NCBI GenBank assembly: GCA_947184155.2
Contig: CAMXCT020003151.1
Span: 1 to 64,000 of the forward strand
Source of the DNA: Cladocopium goreaui
Taxonomy: Eukaryota; Sar; Dinophyceae; Suessiales; Symbiodiniaceae
Direction: 5' to 3'
DNA: 64,000 bases
Positions within the stretch are counted from its first letter, which is position 1, and the number at the start of each line of letters is the position of its first letter. The position numbers and the translations under genes were made by a program. The notes beneath the pieces are model-generated. The model saw nothing but the letters and a program-made list of their open reading frames with translations, had not been told where the DNA came from and made no database searches. Shown here one piece after another: positions 15,487 to 64,000 of the stretch.

Positions 15487-15637
15487 TGGGGTGGAGGGGT
15501 GGGGTGGGATGTTAACGTTCATGTGAACTTGCAGAAGCAGTTGATGCTACGCACACGCGGGGTGGGGGGCGGGGGGGGGTGGGATGTTAACGTTCATGTG
15601 AACTTGCAGAAGTAGTTGATGCTACGCACACGCGGGG
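15487..15637. repeat. G-rich dispersed minisatellite, 2 units (~75 bp)
   Basis: Two units of GGGGTGGGATGTTAACGTTC, followed by ATGTGAACTTGCAGAAG.AG and TTGATGCTACGCACACGCGG. The core GTTAACGTTCATGT recurs in arrays at 26579, 32840 and 33961, marking one dispersed family. Confidence 0.85.
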
Positions 15638-26431: not shown

Positions 26432-26578
26432 AATATCTAGTCTGGTTGGTGGTCTTAACCTATCCCAAAAATATGCTCTGGATCTCCAGTAATCATCCCA
26501 GTTGCTCAAATCACGTGAGCCAATTGAGCCACTAAAACCATTCACGCGGGTAAAAACGCGCAATACAAAATGCATATG

Positions 26579-26787
26579 GGTGGGGTGGGGTGGGGTGGGG
26601 TAATAACGTTCATGTTAACTTGCACACCGACGTCATGCTACGCTAGGGTGATCTTCTCTTGCGCTTGCACACACACATGTCATGCTACGCTATGGTGGGG
26701 TAGGGTGGGGTAATAACGTTCATGTTAACTTGCACACCGACGTCATGCTACGCTAGGGTGATCTTCTCTTGCGCTTGCACACACACA
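26579..26787. repeat. G-rich dispersed minisatellite, 2 units (~110 bp)
   Basis: Two units each start with GGGGTGGGGT runs and contain TAATAACGTTCATGTTAACT, TGCACACCGACGTCATGCTA and CGCTAGGGTGATCTTCTCTT. The first unit has an additional CACACATGTCATGCTACGCT stretch. Confidence 0.9.
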
Positions 26788-29002: not shown

Positions 29003-30649
29003 TCAAGGTGTTGTACCTGAAACGGCAAAACATCGTGAGGAATGTTGGGCTGGGGTTCTGAAGAAGCAAACCAGGAATGCGCAAAGCTCAATGGCAAAGC
29101 AAGCCACATAGGCTCCCAACCAGATTGCGGAATATTTTATGATGACAAGGACCAACAGCATGTATTGAAGGCTCATGATACATAAACAGGCAGCTAGCAC
29201 CAATCCTGTAAGAGATGCGCCCACGAGTGTCTGCCAAAATCCAGGGGACATGGCTCGGGTTGTCAGGCGGGATGTTCGCAGCACCAGAGGAAATATGAGG
29301 ATCCATGTCAAGGACATTTGTACTCCGCAACCAAACGTATTGGCAATGATGTACTCGGAGACCGAAGCAAACCCCAGCTTGGAGGCTGACATCTCACAAT
29401 CCGCCTGGCCGTCACAGCCAAGCGCCATCATGAAGCCACTCAAAATCACTGGCAAATTAGCTGCGACGCAAGAGCTGAGAGGGAGATAGTCCTCTTTCCC
29501 TATGGATGCTTCAAGGCTTTCATGCAATGGGCCCTTCACATATGCATTGAACTGGTCCAGGATTTCATCACGGCTCGGGTAGCTAGTGATGTCACGGATG
29601 TCCTGAAGCACGTCGGGGGACATCAAAGGAGCATCCGGAGCATCTGCAACAGTTCCGAAAGGGACTTGAACCGGAGGCCCCAAGGCTTCATCAAAAAGGT
29701 TCACAATTTGCTCCTGGATGACAATGCGGTCAGCTTCCACTGTGCACTCTGCACTTCGAACATCGAAGTGCTTCATCTGATCTAGCATCAACTCGTGTTT
29801 CTGCAGTTTGCGCGTGCATAGCCAGAAACAAGGAAAAGCACAGCATCCTCCGCAAAACACATTCGCGGGCACTGCATTCATCATGTAAGAGACCATTAAT
29901 GAAAGCCCTGAATCCAAATCCAGTTGGCCACACCAGCCTTGTCCAACACAACAAAGGCATAGCAAAGTCAACAGAGCGAAGCTCGACAGGACCCACAAAG
30001 GCATCCAGACTGGCACAAAGCGTATGGCCTGTGAGGCTGAGGCTGAAGAGGCTTTCACACAAATAGCGACTTCATAATTGCACCAGAGTCTCTGCCAATA
30101 AGTTTCATCCCAAATCACCAGCATCTGATTGGACTGGGCTATGAAGGCGGGAATCGCCTGCAGGGTCTTCGACTTCACCTCTGCATCGGATGGATGGACA
30201 CAGACCTGATCTATCCAGAACCTGCGTGGATACAGCAGATGTCCAAAGAGATACGTGCCAAGAAACACCCAGCACGGCCACAAGAATGACAGATACTTGA
30301 GTGCTGGATCTTGCTTTGCCACAGCAAGGATGCTACCTGCATGTAGTACCAAGATCAAAATGGCGAGTAGAAAAGCACAGATGCCTGATCCAATGGCCAA
30401 GTTCAGGTTGAGGCAATGGCACAGAGCCAGTCGTTTCATCCAAGATGGACATGACCAAGAATGGCTGATAAAGAAATCCACCTCCGACACCCTCTCCAAA
30501 GAATCATACCTGGAGGTCCGGTCTGGGCTAGCTTGGAAGTACTTGGAGATTGAATTCAACAGAACGAAATTGAACAAAGTATCTGCAGTTGTAGCCCTGA
30601 AAAGTCCATCCTGCTCTGCACGTCGGATTTGCTTATGAACCTGCTGCAT
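29003..30649 (-). CDS. TIR-like domain multi-pass membrane protein
   Basis: A single uninterrupted 548-codon frame, far longer than any neighbour. Near residue 55 it reads VDFFISHSW, the start of a TIR-like fold. Two hydrophobic helices follow (about 80-110 and 117-140), then the fold resumes with FWIDQVCVH, a LVIWDETYWQRLWCNYEVA segment (about 175-198) resembling the late TIR strands and helices, and further helices. A soluble acidic region spans about 280-390, and at least three membrane helices fill the last 150 residues. TIR-like domains act in signalling or NAD cleavage; the position of the usual catalytic glutamate is not certain here. The domain seems interrupted by membrane segments, which is unusual. 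No introns are seen, and a decayed spliced-leader-like motif lies just upstream, suggesting origin by retroposition. Function is unknown. Confidence 0.8.
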   Translation of the reverse strand: MQQVHKQIRRAEQDGLFRATTADTLFNFVLLNSISKYFQASPDRTSRYDSLERVSEVDFFISHSWSCPSWMKRLALCHCLNLNLAIGSGICAFLLAILILVLHAGSILAVAKQDPALKYLSFLWPCWVFLGTYLFGHLLYPRRFWIDQVCVHPSDAEVKSKTLQAIPAFIAQSNQMLVIWDETYWQRLWCNYEVAICVKASSASASQAIRFVPVWMPLWVLSSFALLTLLCLCCVGQGWCGQLDLDSGLSLMVSYMMNAVPANVFCGGCCAFPCFWLCTRKLQKHELMLDQMKHFDVRSAECTVEADRIVIQEQIVNLFDEALGPPVQVPFGTVADAPDAPLMSPDVLQDIRDITSYPSRDEILDQFNAYVKGPLHESLEASIGKEDYLPLSSCVAANLPVILSGFMMALGCDGQADCEMSASKLGFASVSEYIIANTFGCGVQMSLTWILIFPLVLRTSRLTTRAMSPGFWQTLVGASLTGLVLAACLCIMSLQYMLLVLVIIKYSAIWLGAYVACFAIELCAFLVCFFRTPAQHSSRCFAVSGTTP

Positions 30650-32835: not shown

Positions 32836-33004
32836 ACAACCACCCCAGCGTAGCATCACGTATGTGTGGAAGTTGCAGAAGAACGTGCAGTAGCGTAGCA
32901 TCACGTATGTGTGGGAGTTGCAGAAGAACGGGCAGTGGCGGCATCACGTATGTGTGTAAGTGGCAATGAACGTTATTGCCCCACCCCACCCCACCCCACC
33001 CCAT
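32836..33004. repeat. Dispersed minisatellite, reverse orientation, ~3 units
   Basis: Three ~48-bp units of GTAGCATCACGTATGTGTGG plus AGTTGCAGAAGAACG.GCAGT end in AATGAACGTTATTGCCCCAC and CCCACCCC repeats: the reverse complement of the GGGGTGGGG..AACGTTCAT head of the arrays at 26579 and 33961. Confidence 0.85.
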
Positions 33005-33900: not shown

Positions 33901-33906
33901 GGATGG

Positions 33907-33945
33907 TTGCAGCATGTTGGCTGGACGGGGGGGGTTAGCCCCGTT
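33907..33945 (+). repeat. Left inverted end of the transposon
   Basis: Matches 38246-38284 in reverse complement with six differences. The inner GACGGGGGGGGTTAGCCCCG is identical in both ends. Confidence 0.75.
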
Positions 33946-33960
33946 TTTACTGGGTTGCTT

Positions 33961-34320
33961 TTGGGGTTGGGGGGGGTGGGGTGGGATGTCAACGTTCATG
34001 TTACGCTGATGATGTTACGCTGATCATCTGGGGTTGGGGTGGGGTGGGGTGGGATGTTAACGTTCATGTTACGCTGATGATGTTACGCTGATCATCTGGG
34101 GTTGGGGAGGGGTGGGGTGGGATGTTAACGTTCATGTTACGCTGATGATGTTACGCTGATCATCTGGGGTTGGGGTGGGGTGGGGTGGGATGTTAACGTT
34201 CATGTTACGCTGATGATGTTACGCTGATCATCTGGGGTTGGGGAGGGGTGGGGTGGGATGTTAACGTTCATGTTACGCTGATGATGTTACGCTGATCATC
34301 TGGGGTTGGGGGGGTTGCTA
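33961..34320. repeat. 68-bp G-rich tandem array, 5 units
   Basis: Units contain GGGTGGGATGTTAACGTTCA, TGTTACGCTGATGATGTTAC and GCTGATCATCTGGGGTTGGG. Units with GGGGTGGGGTGGGG alternate with units with GGGAGGGGTGGGG, so the real period is a 136-bp pair. The runs of G could form quadruplexes. Related arrays lie at 15487, 26579 and 32836. Confidence 0.95.
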
Positions 34321-34763
34321 CGCTCAGAAGGTCTTGGGGGCAGTGTGTGTGCACTTGCTTTCGATGTTGATGGTACGCGAAGAACGTATTTGGGGTTGGG
34401 GGGGTTGGGTCTGTGTTAACTGTATGATATATTTACTGTATTATATAATTATATATTTACTGAATAATATATACTTGTCAGGATGATTTGTTTATGTAAA
34501 TTTCACCGGTCATGTCTGCCTGCTACCTGCGCTGCAGGTACGCATCTCAGATGTTGGGGCTGGGCTGCATTGGTGTGTCAGGGCTGGTTGGAGTTCTTGG
34601 TTGCGTGAGAGTTCGTCAAGTTTGCTTAGACATATAAGTTTCCAAAAGTAGTTCGTAGTTACATGGTTCAAACGCAAGAAAGGGTTTAACGCGAATATCA
34701 TGGGAATGTCATGCTTGTCTAGCACAGCTTTGCTTGTGTAGCTCGCTGCTGTGCTCTGTTTCC

Positions 34764-35231
34764 ATGGATCCGCTTCTGTATGGTGTTACATTGTTAATTC
34801 TCCTCCGCGCAGCTCATGAAAAGTTTCCACCTGTCTGTGTTCTTTGTTCCTTTTTGAGCACGGAAGAACTGTGGGATGTTCACTACATCTTAGCGTTGAA
34901 ATGGCATGGGGATGCTGGAGCTGAGACCACCTTTGCTGCAGTGGAACGAGTGTATCATTGGACGAGCCTTCGCCAGGGTTTGTCGGTTCTCAAGGAAATT
35001 TGGTTTCGTTATGTGAAAGAACATGGGCCTCTGCCAGTGAAAGTTCTTCAACAAGGTGAATGGTTGCAGAAGCGGCTACGTGGAACAATGCCGCAGAGCT
35101 TTCCTGACTCAGAGTTGGCTGAACCTTGGGACTTTCAATGTGAAATGATGTTGCAAAATTTGCTGGAATCTGGGCAGCCCATTGAGCCGCTTTCGACTGC
35201 AGGACGCAGAACTCTTGAACATCCACCCTCC
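34764..35231 (+). CDS. Transposase-like gene, exon 1 (N-terminal region)
   Basis: An open frame from the ATG at 34764 (open upstream to 34734) codes about 156 residues, including CVLCSFLSTEELWDVHYILA, a Trp/His-rich helical region and WLQKRLRGTMPQSFPD. It ends at a GT donor after CACCCTCC (phase 0). The next exon opens in phase 0 at 35386. I recognise no domain in this part. As the first exon of a transposon gene it may hold a DNA-binding or partner-binding region. The start could lie in an earlier exon. Confidence 0.5.
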
Positions 35232-35385
35232 GTGATTCCTGTTTCTGAGTTCGGTTTTAGTTTGTTTCTTGACATCTTACTTTTCTTCCTTAGATGACCT
35301 CGTTATCATTTCTTGTCGGATGCCGAAATAGACGAAATAGACTTTGTACTGTCATGTTCGTGACGTTCAAACTGTTGTATCCTAG

Positions 35386-35633
35386 GTCTGTGAGAGCCCG
35401 GAGATTCGAAGAATGTTGGCTCCTACGTTGACTTTGGAATCGGAATCCGAAAGTCAAGATGCTGAAGGAGATGCATCGTCAGCTAAATCGGAAAGTTTGT
35501 CGCCACCGCGCTTCCAAGGTGGAAAGATTATCGATAGTCCTATAGCTTTGCGACAAAAACTCGATTATCTTTTGAAGCACTCTGTGAATGCCCCGCTTCT
35601 TGGTTTGTTTTTCGAATTGTTTTCCAAGGATTT
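35386..35633 (+). CDS. Transposase-like gene, exon 2
   Basis: Follows a TATCCTAG acceptor (intron 35232-35385, 154 nt). It codes a Ser/Glu-rich stretch (TLTLESESESQDAEGDASSA) and a helical part with ALRQKLDYLLKHSVNAPLLG. The best phase-compatible donor is GTACTG at 35634 (phase 2), joining the next exon at 35691. An alternative donor (CTTCTTG then GTTTGT) does not keep frame. Confidence 0.45.
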
Positions 35634-35690
35634 GTACTGTCAATTCTTTCCCTGATGCATTCATTTGCATTTGAGAATGATGAATCTCAG

Positions 35691-36087
35691 GTTGCCCTCA
35701 GCTTCTGCTGCCGAGCTCACTCACTCATCTTCGGCTGCGTCTTCGTCTGGCGGCCCTATGTCGATGCTGCAGCGGGCTGCGCTCTTTGAGGACCGTGTCA
35801 AACCGGTCGCAGATGAAGATGGAGCGACCTCCCTGCCTGACACAAAATGGGGTAGATGCATGCGGGCAGACTGTGGATATGCTTTGTCGCCGCACCTTTA
35901 TGCTTCTGGTCAATTTGCAGGACAGATTCGCTTGCTTTGCAATAGGTTCAAGAAAGTGCAAGATGGTAAAAGAATGTGTTTTTTTTCCGCTCCTGTTCCG
36001 AAAGACAAATGGTCGGAGCTGCCCAAGTTCATGAGAAACAAGTATGCAGAACTCCCTGCCAGTTTGCGCCGAAACACTGAGCGCGAT
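35691..36087 (+). CDS. Transposase-like gene, exon 3 with Cys-rich segment
   Basis: Starts after GAATCTCAG. It codes a Ser/Ala linker, then GRCMRADCGYAL, further IRLLCNRFKK and KRMCFF, four cysteines spaced like a small zinc-binding fold, and ends in a basic part. A GT donor at 36088 (CGCGAT then GTGTGA) closes in phase 0 right before an in-frame stop, and the next exon resumes in phase 0. Confidence 0.5.
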
Positions 36088-36414
36088 GTGTGAAGAACTT
36101 TGTGCCAATCGGAAAAAGAGCTGCTGCTGCGGTTTGTTTGCTGAGAGATCTTTGCACCTGATGAAGAATGAAGCATGAAGTTTCCGCAGAATGAAATGGC
36201 CTGTCAATCGCGAATATCATGGGAATCAATTCAAACCACTTGGCCATGACTCTGATACCTTGACTGCAGACACACCTTGCACGTTTCTCCCAGTCGCCAG
36301 AATTTGGTTGGTGAAGTTGTGGGTGCCATGTGTTTCACTAGGTGTGAGGTTTTTTTGAGCAAGCCAGTGGCCATTTTCCACTCATGTCACGTCTTTTTTG
36401 CAAAGCCTTTTTAG

Positions 36415-36671
36415 GTCCGAGTTTCACACAGGGAACGTCCAATGAAAAAATCCCTCGGACATGATAGATATCCCTCTGGGCGCAAACGACCTCCGAGTCG
36501 CACCATCGCTACGAGTTCTGGTGTCAACAGAGAATTTCACAAGAAGGGTCTCAGCTATTCTCCCGGAATCCGTGGGAAATTCAAAAAGTACCGTGCTTTG
36601 CGAGGTCTCAAGCAGATTGACTTTGCATCCTTAGCCTTGTGGTCTGAAATGCGGTGCAAAAAATACCTGGA
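36415..36671 (+). CDS. Transposase-like gene, exon 4 (basic region)
   Basis: Follows a CCTTTTTAG acceptor (intron 36088-36414, 327 nt) and codes a strongly basic segment with GHDRYPSGRKRPPS and GIRGKFKKYRALRGLKQIDF. The frame is open to a stop at 36730. To reach the zinc-ribbon frame beyond, a shift is needed between about 36671 and 36707. GT..AG borders that would remove 17 nt in frame exist at 36672-36688, but so short an intron is doubtful; a frameshift mutation is equally possible. Confidence 0.45.
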
Positions 36672-36688
36672 AGCCAAAGGTTTCTTCG

Positions 36689-36806
36689 GGGTGCAGTGGG
36701 GACGCAGTGCTGGAGATGTCAAGCATCCTTGAACCAGCTTCAACAAGATCCTGCCTTACTGCGTTGTTCGAACCGTTCTTGTCCAGCACTGCGACCTCGC
36801 ATCTTG
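36689..36806 (+). CDS. Transposase-like gene, exon 5 (zinc ribbon)
   Basis: Codes TQCWRCQASLNQLQQ then LLRCSNRSCPALRPRIL, a CxxC..CxxxxC ribbon as found before the catalytic domain in IS1595-type transposases. It ends at TCTTG before GTATGG (GT donor, phase 0), with an intron of 77 nt (36807-36883). Confidence 0.55.
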
Positions 36807-36883
36807 GTATGGTTTCATTTTTTTGGATCCATCGCAAATGATATACGCATGTTCACCTAGTCTTCGACTTGTGCGTTTTTCAG

Positions 36884-37867
36884 TTGTGGCCGTTCTTGCC
36901 TGTAGGTATCAATTGGAAATTTGGCTACACACCCTTCATCAACCGACTGAGAGGTGGACATGAACCAGACATGCAAGGCTTCGTACGTACGGTTTATTGT
37001 GTCAGTGCTAAGATTCCTCAAGATGCAGCTGCGCACATTGTTGGGCGATCCCATGACTATGTCGATTCCATTTACAAGCAAGCTCGCATGGTGACAGGTT
37101 GGGCTGAGTTTCAGAAAAACAAATCCATGACCTTTGACGCCGGAATCCTGGAGGTAGATTCGTGTCGTACGGCAACCAGAAAAAACAAGGTGGGGTCAAA
37201 GAAACGAAAAATGACAAAGAAGCCAGCCGGGAACACGGTTGCCAAGAAACCAACTTCCAAAGTGGCAGTGCATGGTGGTCGGTTTCTAGTGGCTGTCAGC
37301 AGAAAAAACAAACAAAGCGCTTTCTATCCTTTGCCTGACCGCTTCACGGCTACATCTGCTCCTGGCCCGCCAGAGACTTTAGACGAAGTTGTGCCGCTCT
37401 TGCAACACAAAGTGAACCCCAGCAAACACATCCTGGGCTCCGATGCCTCCAAAGGATTGAAGGGAGCTAGAAAAAAATTGAACTTGGAAGCAGTCACTGC
37501 TAGACATAGCTTGTCAGAATACACACCTGTACAGTCCCTCAAAAAGAGAAAGGTTTCCACAACAGCCTTGAAAGCCATTGGCTGCAAAGCAGCTCAAACT
37601 GGCCGGCATAAAGTAACCATGGTCGGAGGAGACCAGGTCGCAGAATCTCACACAGCTCTGCTGAAAAAGCAGCTGAGACGAAACAATAAGCTTGGAGGCC
37701 TCTCATTGAAAACTGCACACGTGGATGGTTTGTCAGCACTTTACATTCACAAGAACTTAGGCCTGGAAGCGACTATGATGGCGTTCGCTCAATTCATTGC
37801 CCACATGACTGACAAAGTCAGTCATGTGAAATGTTTTGAAGATGTCTCGTGGATGGAAGACAAGTGA
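36884..37867 (+). CDS. IS1595/ISXO2-like DDE transposase domain, last exon
   Basis: After a GTTTTTCAG acceptor the frame runs 328 codons to a stop. Order of motifs: FVRTVYCVSAKIPQDAAAHI and GRSHDYVDSIYKQARM (helix-turn-helix-like, as in aa..LG.S..tv); ILEVDSC with the first Asp; a basic insert; GGRFLVAVSR; HILGSDASKGL with the second Asp; ARHSLSEYTP like the NHS..EY segment; and DQVAESHTALLKKQLRRNN, which gives a candidate third acidic residue. This order is that of IS1595/ISXO2 transposases, related to eukaryotic Merlin elements. A basic insert after the first Asp and a long helical spacer before the Glu are additions. Whether it is active is unknown. Confidence 0.6.
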   Translation: MWPFLPVGINWKFGYTPFINRLRGGHEPDMQGFVRTVYCVSAKIPQDAAAHIVGRSHDYVDSIYKQARMVTGWAEFQKNKSMTFDAGILEVDSCRTATRKNKVGSKKRKMTKKPAGNTVAKKPTSKVAVHGGRFLVAVSRKNKQSAFYPLPDRFTATSAPGPPETLDEVVPLLQHKVNPSKHILGSDASKGLKGARKKLNLEAVTARHSLSEYTPVQSLKKRKVSTTALKAIGCKAAQTGRHKVTMVGGDQVAESHTALLKKQLRRNNKLGGLSLKTAHVDGLSALYIHKNLGLEATMMAFAQFIAHMTDKVSHVKCFEDVSWMEDK

Positions 37868-38200
37868 AAAAAAGGGCTCAACATGCAAATGTGTCGCCGC
37901 AACAAACCCCTGTAAAAGTCAATGACACAACATAACCATGTTTGAAAATTGTCATTTCGCCACGGCGAAACACTCCTTTTTGATCATGTGACTTTGCCTT
38001 TGACACATCAATGAAAAAAAGAGCTCAAAATGCAAATGTATCGCGGCAACAAACCCCTGTAAGGGTTGCTCCCAACATCCATTTTTTTGAAAAAATGAAA
38101 GTTATGTTGACACTGCTAAGCAGAACTCAAGTCAATGACACATCATAAGCATGTTTGAAAACTGCCATTTCGCCACAGCGAAACACTAATTTTTGATGAT
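37868..38200. repeat. Duplicated 3' segment of the transposon with TTTCGCC palindromes
   Basis: TGAAAAAAAGGGCTCAACAT at 37866 recurs as TGAAAAAAAGAGCTCAAAAT at about 38010 with the following ~130 bases. Each copy carries CATTTCGCCACGGCGAAACA (or CACAGCGAAACA), a 16-bp palindrome. A further copy of the palindrome lies outside the element at 32457. Confidence 0.85.
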
Positions 38201-38245
38201 ATGCACTTTGCCTTTGACAGACAGACGAACCAAAACAATTGGAAG

Positions 38246-38284
38246 CGGGGCTAACCCCCCCCGTCAACCCAGCATGTTGCAGCA
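38246..38284 (-). repeat. Right inverted end of the transposon
   Basis: CGGGGCTAACCCCCCCCGTC then AACCCAGCATGTTGCAGC, reverse complement of 33907-33945 with six differences. Confidence 0.75.
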
Positions 38285-38289
38285 AAAAT

Positions 38290-39080: not shown

Positions 39081-39084
39081 CATT

Positions 39085-39443
39085 TCCATGGTTTTTCCAT
39101 GGTTTTTCCATGGTTTTTCCATGGTTTTCCATGGTTTTTCCATGGTTTTTCCATGGTTTTTCCATGGTTTTTCCATGGTTTTTCCATGGTTTTTCCATTG
39201 TTTTTCCATGGTTTTTCCATGATTTTTCCATGGTTTTTCCATGGTTTTTCCATGGTTTTCCATGGTTTTTCCATGGTTTTTCCATTGTTTTTCCATGGTT
39301 TTTCCATGGTTTTTCCATGGTTTTTCCATGGTTTTTCCATGGTTTTTCCATGGTTTTCCCATGGTTTTTCCATGGTTTTTCCATGGTTTTTCCATGGTTT
39401 TTCCATGGTTTTTCCATGGTTTTTCCATGGTTTTTCCATGGTG
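39085..39443. repeat. 11-bp tandem array CCATGGTTTTT, ~32 units
   Basis: About 360 bp of CCATGGTTTTT with occasional 10-bp units and single substitutions (CCATTG, CCATGA). Since 11 is not a multiple of three, three units (33 bp) give the same 11-residue peptide in every frame and no stops, producing five long false ORFs. It lies just downstream of the 39.5-kb exon on that exon's strand. Confidence 0.95.
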
Positions 39444-58697: not shown

Positions 58698-59831
58698 TTA
58701 ATTCCCACGTCGCTTCTTCTTCATGAAGGCCATATACTTCTGAAATCTTGTCGGGACATCGTCTTCTTCGATCTGTGGAATCTCAATCTGTGCAACAACT
58801 TCTTTTTGGAAGATTGGATTTGCAAGTGCTCTCACTCCACCAAGTCTCTCAAGATATTGCTGGATGAATGTCATCGTTTTGGAATTATTCGGCAGGACAG
58901 GTCTTCTTGTAATACCTGCACATTCATTCCTCCATCCAAGGCGATACATTGAACTGCATTTTGAGCCATCAAAGGTGGGAAAAAACCGTTCTCCCAATAA
59001 AGTGGTTAAATTCTGAATGATATTGCGAAAACACAATGCCTGTAGTGCACCCGCACGTTTTGATGGTGGCAGTAGAGTTGCCTCATCCGAGTGGTATGAA
59101 ATGTATTTTGCTCGAGCACCTGCTCCAGAAACTTTGATTGGAAATAACATCCCTGAAAAAAGGTAAAATGAGATCATCATCTCAAACCATGAAATGCCCC
59201 AGTCATTTGGGTCCTTGTTATCAATGTCACTGGGCCAGCGCAACGTCTCCACCCACTGCTTGATTGCAATTCCCAATCTGGGTCCTTGTAAAATCATCTG
59301 AAACACTTGTAACTCACATTCAACCGGGGTCCACGAAGTGTATCCCTCAGGTTCAAAATTGCAAAGCCATTTCAGTGCCTCATGTCCATAGGCATGTGAG
59401 TCAAAAACTCCAATTATTCTTCCTTGTTCCTGTCGTGGCAATTGCAATTTTGTGGTATGGCCTTTTCCTGTTGACGCGGATTGATTGAGCTGTTCGCACC
59501 GCATCTTGTTGAGTTGTGCCATGTACTTTAGTACACATATCAACATCTCTTCCTCATTTTTTTGAAATTTCACTGCATCATCAGCGCACTGACGTATACA
59601 TGTTGGTATTGTTTGAAACGTCAACCCAACCACCATGTCCGCACAAAAATTTCCTGCAATATACCATAGGTCATCAAGATCCCTAGCATCTTCAAAACGT
59701 CGATGACTTTTGACTTTCCTGACCTTGAAGACTTCCGGTCGCCAAATCTGATGCAACTGCAGTATGAGATCCGAATTGGGTAGTTTATGAAGACAGTGTG
59801 AAAAAAGTTCCAATTCGATCAATCTGACCAC
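58698..59831 (-). CDS. LINE: RNase H end and C-terminal tail
   Basis: Continues the RNase H domain after a frame change. Its first ~85 residues hold FKVRKVKSHRRFEDARDLDD and YIAGNFCADMVV, the His and final Asp (N..AD) motifs of RNase H. The rest (about 290 residues) is an unassigned tail with charged stretches, ending EDDVPTRFQKYMAFMKKKRR before the stop. It would normally be fused to the reverse-transcriptase ORF. No ATG start exists at the junction (GTG is the first listed codon), so this is a broken or recoded part rather than a separate gene. Confidence 0.8.
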   Translation of the reverse strand: MVRLIELELFSHCLHKLPNSDLILQLHQIWRPEVFKVRKVKSHRRFEDARDLDDLWYIAGNFCADMVVGLTFQTIPTCIRQCADDAVKFQKNEEEMLICVLKYMAQLNKMRCEQLNQSASTGKGHTTKLQLPRQEQGRIIGVFDSHAYGHEALKWLCNFEPEGYTSWTPVECELQVFQMILQGPRLGIAIKQWVETLRWPSDIDNKDPNDWGISWFEMMISFYLFSGMLFPIKVSGAGARAKYISYHSDEATLLPPSKRAGALQALCFRNIIQNLTTLLGERFFPTFDGSKCSSMYRLGWRNECAGITRRPVLPNNSKTMTFIQQYLERLGGVRALANPIFQKEVVAQIEIPQIEEDDVPTRFQKYMAFMKKKRRGN

Positions 59832-62815
59832 CGCACAACGTAGCTGGCGTCTGTTACAAACTCTGCAGTAACCATACTCGGGGATTTAAGTGCAATTTCA
59901 CATGCACAGACCAAGGCTTGCAATTCTCCCCTGGCTACCGTTTGGTCACCTGACACCAGACCCATTGCAGCCACTCTAAAAAAAGGCAGTCTCGGTGGTT
60001 CTAAAAATAGAAAATCCACACTCATCCTTCGTGCCGTGTCTGATGTCGAAAGATCTTGGATAACCGCCCATGCCGCCAGTCTTCCCACATGATATGTGGG
60101 ATGGATGGCTCCCCCATCCATAAAGAAACGCAGATGTGTCAGGCCCGTTTCATATGGTGGTTCCACCTCCTGTAGTTTGATCGTTGTCGTAAATGCACGC
60201 AGGATATTGGCATCATCAAACATTCTTGGAAGCGGCATGTAACACCATTCTGGTCTGACATGTTGCAAGGTTTCACAAGCCTCTTTGTGCCTTTGTCTCA
60301 CCTCCTGCAATGGAGCACATGTCAAAAGTCTGTGTTCACGTGTGTCAGGTTCACCACATAATTGACACATTGGGGTAACGTTCTCATCCCAAATTGCCTT
60401 CTGTTGCATGGTCTGAAAACCTCCAACCATGTTGAGTTTAACCAGTTGTTGTTCCGTTTCATTCAAGCAGGAAAAAGCCTTGAGGGAAAGCTTGAGGTCA
60501 ACGAAAAAATCTCCAACCCCTTTGCGTGTCATCAGTGTCACTAAATGGCATTCCCACATTGCAGCGATGGTGTTTCGTATCTTCTTAGTGGAGTCACGTA
60601 GGATGTTGCACTTTAACATCTCAGGTCCTGAAAGTGTACCCTCCTCAGCAAGATGCCAATCCACATGATTGAGATAACATCTCAAAGCTCCTGCTGGACC
60701 AAATGGTCGAGTCCCCTCATATTGTACTGCAAAACGTACTGCAGAGGTGGCAACGTCAACATCAAAATTGCTCAAGCGTCGTATTGTCCTTGCACAGTGG
60801 CAAAGTACAAATACAAACGGGTCTTGCATGTACTTTGTCAAACCGCAACATGAAATCAGAGGAGATGCATTGTGCCAATTTCCAACCAGTGCTTGTGTAA
60901 TTGCCCTGCGTATAGCAGTAAAATGTACTTGTCCAATGTAGACTGCGTCCGCACTGTAAAAAGCCATTGGAAAAACTGCCGTTTGAATAAAAAGAGCCTT
61001 TTTTTGCAGAGTACAAGGCAAATGTTCAATCCGTCCAATCCGAGTGATAGCCTCTGCGATTTTATCCTTGACAAAACCCAGTGACATAGATTTGTTGTAA
61101 TGAACCACTTCACCAAGATCCTTCACAACGGATTTGATCACCACTTCACCATCATCCACCTGTATGTTTTCCACACAGAACTTTCGGAACTCTTTTGTGG
61201 TCCCCCAATGCCAGCTCTTTGCATGATCGATCTGCAGTCGTAAAACGTTTGTTAAACGTTTGACCGTTTCCAGAGCTTCCAGGTGTGACCTCTGATGCTT
61301 CGTCAGCCAACTCCAGTTGTCCGCATAGGCAAAAGGAAAAACCTGTTGGTTGTAAATTCCATAGTAAAAAAATGCCGATGTACCTAACATGGACAAAACA
61401 CTGATTGAGCAACCTTCAGGCACCCCTGAAGTCGAAAAAATTCCTTGACCAACAAGTCCGTTGAGTGTAGGAAAACGCACCATTCTGTCAAGACTCATGG
61501 TCCAAGCTGTCACAATTGCCAGAGGAATACCTAACTGTGTCATAATCTTGGCCACAGCAAAGCGTCCAAACGTGTTAAAGGCTTTGATTAGGTCCAGTGA
61601 GTATCCTCCACAAGTCTGAGATTGGCTGAGGGCGTCCTCAATAAATCTCTTCTGAACATATGCAATCTCTTTGACTCCCCTACCGGGCAGTCCGCCTGAA
61701 ATAGCTGATGGAAAAAAACCTTTCCAAGCATGTGCAACTGTCTGAAAAACCATCTTCCCAAAAAGTCTGTAAAGACAGCTCAGAATTGTCACCGGTCTTG
61801 CATCGTGCATCGATTGTGGTGATTCTTTTTTGGAAAGTAAAATGGTTTTGGCCATCATCATGTTGGTAGAAAAACCATCCTGAAGTACCAGGTTGTAAAT
61901 CCTGACCAGGTCAATGATGCATCTTTTTGGCAAGCATTTCAACTCCTCATTCGACCATCCGCATGGACCCACAGCCTTGTTGGATGGCAACTTCCGTATC
62001 AAAGACATCCATCTGTCAATATCATCCATATCAAAAGTGATCGCTGGAAGTTTGGGCAAGTTGCTTGATTCGAGCATCGTAAGGAAGTCACCCCATGTAT
62101 CCTCTTGAAATTGTTTCTCTCTACGATCTCGTTGCCAAAAAGGTCGCCAAAAACGATCGAATTCATGTAAAATTTCACCTTCCGTAACAGCATTGAATGT
62201 AACGTGAAGCGTTCCACATGTCTCCAATGTCCCCGATGCATGCCTGAAAAAAACTTTTCTGCCTTTTTGTCCAACGAACTGCAGCAAAGCATCATTAAAT
62301 CGCAACACTGAATGGCTTGGAATGTCCAACTGTTCATTCATGAGAAGTGCCGTAGCGCCCACAGTCGATCTAAGCAATTGAGCCTCAACCTTTCTGTGAA
62401 TCGGCACATCGGCAAGTTGTGGCGTTTTTTTGGATTTGATGATACGGTAGCTCAACTTTGAAAAATCATGTTCCTGATCAAACTGCATCGTTGCCTGAAA
62501 TTTGTTCCTCCTGCATCTGCTTTCCTCGAGGCAAGCACAATTACAATCATGTTCAGTGATTTGTGTCACCGTATCAATGATGTCCATCTCCGGCACTGTT
62601 GTTGGCAAGTAGGCCACCACTTCAAACGCAAGAATCCAGTTAGACCATTTGTTTCCATATCCCTTTGCAGAAAGAATAGCATTCCATTCACGTTGTGCTG
62701 CAGCCACGGCATGCTCATCAGAGTGATTGTCCATGGGATTCCAATCCATGCTTTTCAATCTCCGCACCAATGACTTAAGTCTGCGGACTTGTCGGATTTT
62801 CAATCTTGATTTCAA
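59819..62815 (-). CDS. LINE reverse transcriptase with zinc knuckle and first half of RNase H
   Basis: 998 codons. The first ~260 residues link endonuclease and polymerase. The RT spans about 270-550: NKAVGPCGWSNEELK, AKTILLSKK, ARPVTILSCLYRLFGKM, catalytic SLDLIKAFN (first Asp about 408), GVPEGCSISVLSM, and PFAYADNWSW, where the usual YADD is YADN. Later comes CQLCGEPDTREHRLLTC (CCHC-type zinc site). RNase H begins with FMDGGA, ARGELQAL and EFVTDASYVV and is cut by the stop at 59819. The first codon is TTG, four bases overlapping the upstream stop, so translation must come by frameshift or reinitiation, or the copy is damaged. RT copies the element's RNA at a nicked target. Confidence 0.85.
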   Translation of the reverse strand: MKSRLKIRQVRRLKSLVRRLKSMDWNPMDNHSDEHAVAAAQREWNAILSAKGYGNKWSNWILAFEVVAYLPTTVPEMDIIDTVTQITEHDCNCACLEESRCRRNKFQATMQFDQEHDFSKLSYRIIKSKKTPQLADVPIHRKVEAQLLRSTVGATALLMNEQLDIPSHSVLRFNDALLQFVGQKGRKVFFRHASGTLETCGTLHVTFNAVTEGEILHEFDRFWRPFWQRDRREKQFQEDTWGDFLTMLESSNLPKLPAITFDMDDIDRWMSLIRKLPSNKAVGPCGWSNEELKCLPKRCIIDLVRIYNLVLQDGFSTNMMMAKTILLSKKESPQSMHDARPVTILSCLYRLFGKMVFQTVAHAWKGFFPSAISGGLPGRGVKEIAYVQKRFIEDALSQSQTCGGYSLDLIKAFNTFGRFAVAKIMTQLGIPLAIVTAWTMSLDRMVRFPTLNGLVGQGIFSTSGVPEGCSISVLSMLGTSAFFYYGIYNQQVFPFAYADNWSWLTKHQRSHLEALETVKRLTNVLRLQIDHAKSWHWGTTKEFRKFCVENIQVDDGEVVIKSVVKDLGEVVHYNKSMSLGFVKDKIAEAITRIGRIEHLPCTLQKKALFIQTAVFPMAFYSADAVYIGQVHFTAIRRAITQALVGNWHNASPLISCCGLTKYMQDPFVFVLCHCARTIRRLSNFDVDVATSAVRFAVQYEGTRPFGPAGALRCYLNHVDWHLAEEGTLSGPEMLKCNILRDSTKKIRNTIAAMWECHLVTLMTRKGVGDFFVDLKLSLKAFSCLNETEQQLVKLNMVGGFQTMQQKAIWDENVTPMCQLCGEPDTREHRLLTCAPLQEVRQRHKEACETLQHVRPEWCYMPLPRMFDDANILRAFTTTIKLQEVEPPYETGLTHLRFFMDGGAIHPTYHVGRLAAWAVIQDLSTSDTARRMSVDFLFLEPPRLPFFRVAAMGLVSGDQTVARGELQALVCACEIALKSPSMVTAEFVTDASYVVRWSD

Positions 62816-64000
62816 TGTAAAGACTTCACTGGAGGTGTATAGCCTCCATGTCTGTCAGACTTCACACCCGATGTCTTCTTTTCAACAAAGTTTTTCCGAA
62901 AGGAACAGCGTCCTTTGTATGAGGCATGTAGTGAAGAAACAGCATGTCTTGTAGGATCCCTGAGCCGTGCTTTGTTCAATGCTTTGTCAACCGCACTCTC
63001 AACTTCCTGTGACCATGACAAGAACGCTGCGTCCACAAGTTCCTCAGGTTTTTCCAAAAATTGTTGTTGCAGTGTTTCAAAATCCACCGCTCTATATTCA
63101 CCAGAAATCAGGTCGCCATCTGGAGCGAACGAAGCCCAAGACTTGGGAAGGTTCCACGTGAATTGACTGTCTACCGTCCCATCGAATTTAAAAGTAATGC
63201 ATAAAGGTGAATGTGGTTCAAAAACAACTTCCGTTGAAACTTCCATGTTCTGAATATACTTCAAAAGCCATGGATGGAGAATAGCCGTATCATTCCTTGT
63301 TGAACCAGCACATGTTGCAGGCAATGTGACACCAAATCTTGACTGATACCAAGAGAAAGCTTCACACGCACCCAGATCCCGAAAATACTGGCAGGAATTA
63401 AGCTTCGTCGGAGGTTCATTAAAATCCCCAAGAATACAAAAGGGTAATCCAATTTCCGTAATAGCCGGAATCAGGCTAGCAAGCATGAGGTCGTTTGGCC
63501 TTTTGCCTTCCCTGCAACGGTTTGCAAAACCATAAATGGACACAAACAACACTTCACGCCCGCCCAAACGAATGATAGCCATAGCAATCCTTTGTGTTTC
63601 CCAAAGCAAATCACTGAAACCAGACCGTGGTCTTCTTGATGGAAGGTTAGTAAAAATAGCAGCACCCAAAGCTTCACCACGTAAAGATGGCCTGTTATCT
63701 GCAGAAGTCTTCTTGGCAGAAACATTTGATGACCAAAACGCATGAAATCCACAACCCTTCAAATCGTGATTAACCTGGTTCTGTACAGCATGTGTTGCAC
63801 TAGTTTCAGATAACGCTACAATATTGGCCTCCAGTTGCATGATCTTTCCAACCTTTTGATGCACCGCTGTGGGATTTACAATTGCGATCTTAATTTGTTG
63901 CTCTGAAACTGGACCAGGGTTCGATGCCTCTCCAACACAACATGCAAAAAACATGGCATAAATGAGATGTGAGCTCAATTGACAATACCATTTGATAGTA
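62812..64000 (-). CDS. LINE endonuclease (EEP) ORF with 2A-like motif, partial
   Basis: The frame is open from the right edge of the window. Near its visible start stands FFACCVGEASNPGP, whose NPGP end is the hallmark of 2A-like ribosome-skipping peptides (here preceded by GEAS instead of the common DVEx). After it come the endonuclease/exonuclease/phosphatase motifs: IAIVNPTAV, NIVALSET (catalytic Glu), VSIYGFANRC, ILGDFNEPP (Asp and Asn), AGSTRNDTAI, and FEPHSPLCITF with the final His. The C-terminal part is basic and ends in a stop at 62812. The enzyme nicks target DNA to prime reverse transcription. The beginning of the ORF lies outside the window. Confidence 0.85.
   Translation of the reverse strand, partial: TIKWYCQLSSHLIYAMFFACCVGEASNPGPVSEQQIKIAIVNPTAVHQKVGKIMQLEANIVALSETSATHAVQNQVNHDLKGCGFHAFWSSNVSAKKTSADNRPSLRGEALGAAIFTNLPSRRPRSGFSDLLWETQRIAMAIIRLGGREVLFVSIYGFANRCREGKRPNDLMLASLIPAITEIGLPFCILGDFNEPPTKLNSCQYFRDLGACEAFSWYQSRFGVTLPATCAGSTRNDTAILHPWLLKYIQNMEVSTEVVFEPHSPLCITFKFDGTVDSQFTWNLPKSWASFAPDGDLISGEYRAVDFETLQQQFLEKPEELVDAAFLSWSQEVESAVDKALNKARLRDPTRHAVSSLHASYKGRCSFRKNFVEKKTSGVKSDRHGGYTPPVKSLH

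Follow-up and report, generated by a model that had tools for sequence, protein, structure and literature searches.

A recently mobile cut-and-paste DNA transposon family, very probably of the IS1595/Merlin superfamily, in the dinoflagellate Cladocopium goreaui

The stretch of DNA analysed here, referred to as the window, comprises 64,000 nucleotides of the dinoflagellate Cladocopium goreaui (assembly GCA_947184155.2, contig CAMXCT020003151.1, positions 1 to 64,000, forward strand). At positions 33919-38270 it carries an element of 4352 bp with short inverted ends, a tandem array and a transposase gene split into five exons, flanked by a perfect 8-bp target-site duplication, AGCATGTT. The element has defined ends, occurs in near-identical copies with 8-bp duplications at different genomic sites, can be matched to an empty site, inserts at a recognisable target and retains open genes in part of its copies. 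It very probably represents a recently mobile family of cut-and-paste DNA transposons of the IS1595/Merlin superfamily, and its sequence suggests a distant relationship to bacterial IS1595 and animal Merlin elements. In the following, L numbers denote individual loci or sequence records and C numbers contigs.

Ends, copies and target of the element

The borders of the window copy are formed by the following features.

33911..33918, no strand: left target-site duplication AGCATGTT, identical to 38271-38278; other copies carry an 8-bp duplication at this position too
33919..33946, + strand: left terminal inverted repeat, 28 bp, starting with GG, identical to the right end at 25/28 positions
38243..38270, - strand: right terminal inverted repeat, 28 bp, starting with GG, identical to the left end at 25/28 positions
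38271..38278, no strand: right target-site duplication AGCATGTT, identical to the left one

The initial annotation had placed an element at 33906..38285 and described inverted ends of 39 bp. An element is present there and its ends are a real inverted pair, as 33908-33946 and 38243-38281 match at 34 of 39 positions and rank first among the inverted pairs of the region, and the inner 20 bases are found nowhere else in the window, up to three mismatches being tolerated. The true ends, however, are only 28 bp long, and the outer part of the 39 bp is not inverted repeat and contains the near-palindromic duplication AGCATGTT. Because AGCATGTT is nearly its own reverse complement, the inverted repeat looked longer than it is, and the duplication hidden inside it was overlooked; the limits have been corrected to the borders given above. 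A 6-bp duplication (TTGCAG) was considered first and was ruled out by the GG ends and the borders of other copies. Merlin ends are described as starting with 5'-GG and spanning 24-462 bp (PMC8101967), and both ends of the window element are of this kind.

The genome searched comprised 1,165,616,438 bases in 6202 contigs. A 25-mer from the left end was found exactly at 19 places and one from the right end at 17 places (16 exact and one with one mismatch), and the reversed control of each gave none. Among these 19 exact left and 17 right ends no burst of short non-autonomous copies was seen; more diverged ends were not searched. The last exon matched 20 near full-length and two partial places (C6064 and C47) at about 100% identity, the window included, besides older fragments. 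From the 21 other near-identical places, 20 were taken as 7-kb pieces and gave, together with the window, a set of 21 copies, in all of which both ends could be placed. Addition of L048 (C47) and L074 (C3) raised this number to 23 copies with both ends read. The further copies with the same ends that the initial annotation had proposed to look for thus exist, and its expectation of an 8-9 bp duplication, as in Merlin and IS1595, was borne out by 8-bp duplications that are perfect in 19 of the 23 copies (17 of the first 21, plus L048 and L074). A further left end on C307 (L075) was partly read. It is preceded by ATCACGTT, which is also the right 8-mer of L021, the left one of that copy being AACATGTT; an exchange between L021 and L075 was considered and was not supported, as the compared flanks did not match.

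An empty site was found for L011, which is embedded in a satellite of about 200 bp. When its two flanks are joined, they match two adjacent units that are not interrupted, over 118 and 122 bp at 97% identity, and each of these units carries a single AACATGTT. Outside the array, 18 near full-length copies (L023, L027 and L028 left out) differ by 0.23% on average (0.03-0.49%, 153 pairs).

Insertion occurs at a strongly preferred palindromic target centred on AACATGTT, which the initial annotation had missed. In an alignment of 19 sites, from which L014 and L017 were left out and in which the border of L019 was moved by one base, a C precedes and a G follows the duplication in 19/19, and within the duplication AACATGTT each position agrees in 17-19 of the sites. 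The resulting consensus CAACATGTTG is a perfect palindrome, matched exactly by 10 of the 19 sites and with one mismatch by the site of the window copy. The 12-bp target GCAACATGTTGC occurs 714 times in the genome and its reversed control 16 times, an over-representation of about 45-fold. The element therefore targets a palindromic motif which, though over-represented, makes up very little of the genome. Several of the listed GCAACATGTTGC places are spaced 10 bp apart.

The transposase gene

The gene lies on the + strand and is made up of the following parts.

34764..35240, + strand: exon 1, N-terminal extension; open frame from a predicted ATG at 34764 to a GT donor
35386..35602, + strand: exon 2, predicted from AG/GT borders and a consistent frame
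35702..36087, + strand: exon 3, with a second Cys cluster (GRCMRADC...LLCN...RMCF), assigned by its frame
36415..36798, + strand: exon 4, with the zinc ribbon at its end, frameshifted in this copy near 36691-36707; GC donor at 36799, assigned from the relatives L051, L053 and L055
36708..36782, + strand: zinc ribbon CxxC-15-CxxxxC, read from the sequence and aligning with the zinc ribbon of IS1595
36906..37867, + strand: exon 5, DDE domain with stop codon at 37865-37867, assigned by its frame and by alignment with IS1595

This arrangement upholds the initial description of a gene with a zinc ribbon and DDE motifs in IS1595 order, split by short introns. The catalytic residues are encoded at 37157-37159 (D), 37442-37444 (D) and 37643-37645 (E), which places 94 residues between the two D and 66 between the second D and the E; for three Symbiodinium microadriaticum sequences, the spacing of the first two motif blocks was reported as about 110 residues (PMC8101967). 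An N-terminal region had been described as well, and it is present, yet it extends over about 450 residues ahead of the zinc ribbon rather than 400. The Cys cluster of exon 3 matched Zn_ribbon_16 below cut-off (E 0.039), and similar clusters were seen by eye in the related genes L053 and L051. The zinc ribbon was also found in the relatives L051, L053, L055 and L061 and was not clear in L060, for which partial sequence was examined.

Introns 1-3 and the start codon are predictions. The last intron is in phase 1 and lies at the same place in three relatives, as read by eye; its donor is GT in L053 and L055 and GC in L051 and the window element. A first splice model had a GT donor at 36807 and an acceptor before 36884. 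It was given up for one in which the donor is the GC at 36799 and the acceptor precedes 36906, since the three relatives share the position and phase of this intron and since L014 and L026 then have an open frame, which the first model interrupts.

An open frame of 807-808 amino acids over five exons was found in 10 of the 21 copies, whereas six of the others carry stops and five could not be scored (border motif changed or missing). Of these five, L013 carries the frameshift of the window copy, and L022, L023, L027 and L028 lack parts of the gene. The frameshift in exon 4 of the window copy, overlooked in the initial annotation, is shared by L013 and L021 and thus present in three of the 20 copies covering it, L028 lacking that stretch. 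These three copies lie at different sites and have no other private substitution in common, so that they likely, though not certainly, descend from one copy. One internal deletion is common to L028 and L048, which occupy different sites and are each flanked by a perfect duplication of their own. Because frameshifted and deleted copies sit at different sites in this way, they were probably moved in trans by intact ones.

Among the copies, 37/2426 exon and 8/678 intron positions vary, which is uninformative on selection. In comparison with L053, exon 5 gave a dN of 0.25 with saturated dS, the exon 4 piece a dN of 0.20 with a dS of 1.43, and the zinc-ribbon piece a dN of 0.48 with saturated dS. 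The 21-base dinoflagellate spliced-leader sequence occurs 172 times exactly in the genome (reversed control 0), in line with a dinoflagellate host, and is absent from the window with up to three mismatches allowed.

Family assignment and alternative explanations

The assignment to IS1595/Merlin is carried by a comparison of profiles. Seven aligned sequences (the window family, in the first splice model and therefore about 10 residues longer, with L051, L053, L055, L060, L061 and L062) were compared by hhalign with ten plasmid IS1595 transposases, taken from 11 records picked among 40 listed of 318; the eleventh (L070) was dropped because its gene is split. This single comparison gave a score of 75.5, a probability of 96.5 and an E value of 9.4e-10 over 242 columns; these extend from the zinc ribbon as far as the E residue, with D, D and E aligned in order. 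One hundred column shuffles reached at most 24.3, the reversed profile 14.6, and single transposases of IS1380, IS6 and ISAs1 (two of them incomplete) 13.0-14.2. In addition, NF033547 (IS1595) was the sole NCBIfam match of L051 (E 0.013), L060 (E 0.052) and L055 (E 0.0017), three of the six proteins searched. The last exon matched no family above cut-off, and with the profile of the relatives pointing to IS1595 the initial IS1595/Merlin-like reading was retained.

Two traits agree with the IS1595/Merlin superfamily, namely a DDE domain with the motif order seen by hhalign and a duplication in the range of 8 or 9 bp. A third, an N-terminal zinc finger (Zn_Tnp_IS1595), distinguishes IS1595 from IS1016/Merlin and is represented here by the CxxC...CxxxxC ribbon. 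According to the introduction of PMC8101967, every Merlin or IS1016 element described so far, and hence Merlin in the narrow sense, lacks this domain; the ribbons of the window family, L051, L053, L055 and L061 therefore set these genes apart from it.

Several results weigh against the assignment. Single IS1595 proteins scored 19.6-39.3 against the family profile, half of the ten no higher than the best shuffle, and most of the signal comes from the zinc ribbon and helical part (E 1.5e-6 when taken alone), the DDE part alone being weak (E 0.011). The NF033547 matches of the relatives reached 13.4-18.3 bits with a cut-off of 75, and the window exon, L061 and L062 had no match to this model; L062 instead matched the unrelated TIGR04469 below cut-off (E 0.017). 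The search with a profile of the DDE_Tnp_IS1595 type, proposed with the initial annotation, was negative, as PF12762 did not match the window-family protein and its single match in the genome lies elsewhere (L059). Below cut-off, the zinc ribbon of L055 matched the unrelated family PHD_NSD (E 0.0065) and the window-family protein DNA_ligase_ZBD (E 0.016). A single-sequence fold prediction of the last exon by AlphaFold2 was useless (mean pLDDT 36.4). With regard to mobility, four copies are without a perfect duplication (L014 4/8, L017 4/8, L019 3/8 and L021 6/8 positions), and some flanks share short stretches. Neither PF12762 nor NF033547 was thus reached at library cut-off; a cut-off is not a biological trait, and this lowers the certainty of the assignment and does not exclude it.

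A separate, unnamed DDE superfamily that has 8-bp duplications, GG ends and a zinc ribbon in common with IS1595/Merlin by chance or very remote ancestry would account for the weak match of the DDE part. It would also fit the single-sequence searches, in which the last exon and the spliced protein matched nothing above cut-off in Pfam (best PF05318, E 1), NCBIfam or PDB and reached at best E 0.16 in PHROGs, where no cut-off exists; the Pfam zinc-ribbon families likewise gave no match above cut-off for the window-family protein, the Pfam search of the relatives returned only unrelated families, all below cut-off, and the one PF12762 match above cut-off, at L059, does not belong to this lineage. 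However, a colinear match that extends over 242 columns and scores far higher than the shuffled and reversed profiles, NF033547 as the only NCBIfam match of three relatives, and 8-bp duplications together with GG ends, which are hallmarks of Merlin (PMC8101967), make this explanation unlikely. A hAT- or P-like element was also considered for its 8-bp duplication and palindromic target, since both superfamilies produce 8-bp duplications and tend toward a 14-bp target motif (PMC3706591). This is very improbable, as Pfam gave no hAT or P domain at E values up to 10 and both the zinc ribbon and the order of the motifs agree with IS1595.

If the copies were instead a family of host genes, or a domesticated transposase, that had multiplied through segmental duplication and had inverted ends by chance, this could explain that the related genes L055 and L056 lie 3.6 kb apart on one contig and that some copies share flanks. 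The 5' flank of L014 is that of L017 (99.5%, 597 bp) and its 3' flank that of L026 (100%, 600 bp), and because of these two origins L014 is a product of ectopic recombination between copies or an assembly join. L074 and L019 have flanks in common (95% over 201 bp and 98% over 148 bp), and L074 was therefore not counted as independent. Apart from these and the satellite around L011, flanks share only short stretches of 27-109 bp, and 21 insertions look independent. As judged by eye, loss of one end base would make the duplication of L019 perfect, and that of L017 is off by about one base. Perfect duplications in 19 of 23 copies and the empty site contradict segmental duplication, which is hardly conceivable as an explanation of the family.

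For an IS1595/Merlin-type transposon, the spliced transposase would bind the GG-starting ends through the zinc ribbon and helical part, the DDE core would excise the element, and a symmetric dimer seated on the palindrome CAACATGTTG would insert it with cuts staggered by 8 bases. A function of the N-terminal Cys cluster as target reader is a guess. Activity and targeting can be tested directly, since several copies have natural open genes, an empty site is known and some derivatives are internally deleted.

Relatives, neighbouring sequence and known systems

A search of the genome with the transposase found at least 100 matching stretches (E <=0.001) down to 27% identity, a count that includes the copies of the family itself and several exons per gene. 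No relatives were found in a viral contig collection. Around L051, L053 and L055, no convincing inverted ends were seen in the pieces examined. On C733, the related transposase-like genes L055 and L056 have the same orientation, no inverted pair was found in L055, and the two may have arisen by tandem duplication of a copy that is old or domesticated. The only PF12762 match of the genome search (L059, C6116:243281-243472, E 3.1e-6) is what is left, in broken form, of another Merlin/IS1595 element of a more typical kind. Dinoflagellates might harbour a diverse and old IS1595-type lineage in which the bacterial zinc ribbon was retained, introns and an N-terminal extension bearing a second Cys cluster were added, and specific insertion into CAACATGTTG evolved in the window family, a tentative view to which we give somewhat less than even chances. 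If true, the window family would be the first sequence-specific member of IS1595/Merlin, as far as the literature was searched.

Two further repeats lie within the element.

33962..34311, + strand: subterminal tandem array of a 68-bp unit rich in GGGG runs, 5.2 units; about 2-20 units in other copies
37865-38005 and 38012-38219, + strand: two imperfect direct repeats near the 3' end, with 92% and 89% self-comparison matches

The array had been described initially as tandem-array cargo; it is real, but the variation in its number of units, counted by one exact motif, marks it as a variable subterminal repeat and not as cargo. Repeats elsewhere in the window (15487-15637, 26573-26787 and 32966-33002) share G-rich and GATGTTAACGTTCATG-like stretches with it, and the array may for this reason derive from a dispersed repeat. 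At 39083-39442 lies an 11-bp repeat TTTCCATGGTT of 33 units with 96% matching. On the - strand, 58698-62854 holds two long overlapping open frames, the upstream one with a reverse transcriptase domain (PF00078, E 2.5e-12), and is a probable non-LTR retrotransposon. An open frame of 548 residues at 29003-30649 (- strand) showed a weak match to a TIR domain below cut-off (PF13676, E 0.0035).

To our knowledge, borders exact to the single base have been established for few DNA transposons of the dinoflagellate lineage. The window element is a well-delimited, recently mobile one with a target choice that is unusually strict for a cut-and-paste element. Its zinc ribbon bears on whether Merlin lost this domain or whether eukaryotes acquired IS1595-type elements repeatedly.

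Among known systems, Dada (PMC3706591) is also a DNA transposon with introns, an N-terminal CCCC zinc finger and a strict choice of targets. It differs in its 6-7 bp duplications, in targeting snRNA and tRNA genes and in its distant similarity to MuDR, hAT, P and Kolobok. Bacterial and archaeal IS1595 elements show the same order of zinc ribbon, helical part, D, D and E and 8-bp duplications (PMC8101967). The ten used here consist of one uninterrupted gene for 197-365 residues, in contrast to 807-808 residues, five exons and a long N-terminal extension in the window family. Within IS1595, ISEc69 inserts at AT-rich 8-bp targets (PMC7835479), in contrast to the palindromic target of the window family, and the text of that paper contains no word beginning with 'palindrom'. 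A palindromic target for Merlin or IS1595 was not named in the titles and abstract openings of the literature searched.

The closest published counterparts are the Merlin families with internal tandem repeats from two Symbiodinium species (PMC8101967, 2021), compared here by description and not by sequence. Sy.m_F1 of Symbiodinium microadriaticum and Sy.k_F1/F2 of S. kawagutii resemble the window element in their dinoflagellate host, GG ends and internal tandem repeats, and Sy.m_F1 also in its 8-bp duplications and a poorly conserved DDE domain (E 0.2). Sy.m_F1 differs in its size of 2.57 kb, its 51-bp ends and the lack of a clear duplication consensus. No word beginning with 'intron' occurs in the text of PMC8101967, in contrast to the five-exon gene described here, and because that study searched open reading frames, zinc ribbons of its families may have been hidden by introns. 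The rarity that the initial annotation assumed for protist elements with introns and tandem arrays holds less well in view of these published tandem-repeat Merlins. Thus, this kind of element is already known from Symbiodinium, whereas the window family is new, as far as the literature was searched, in its zinc ribbon, its extended five-exon gene and its strict choice of a palindromic target.

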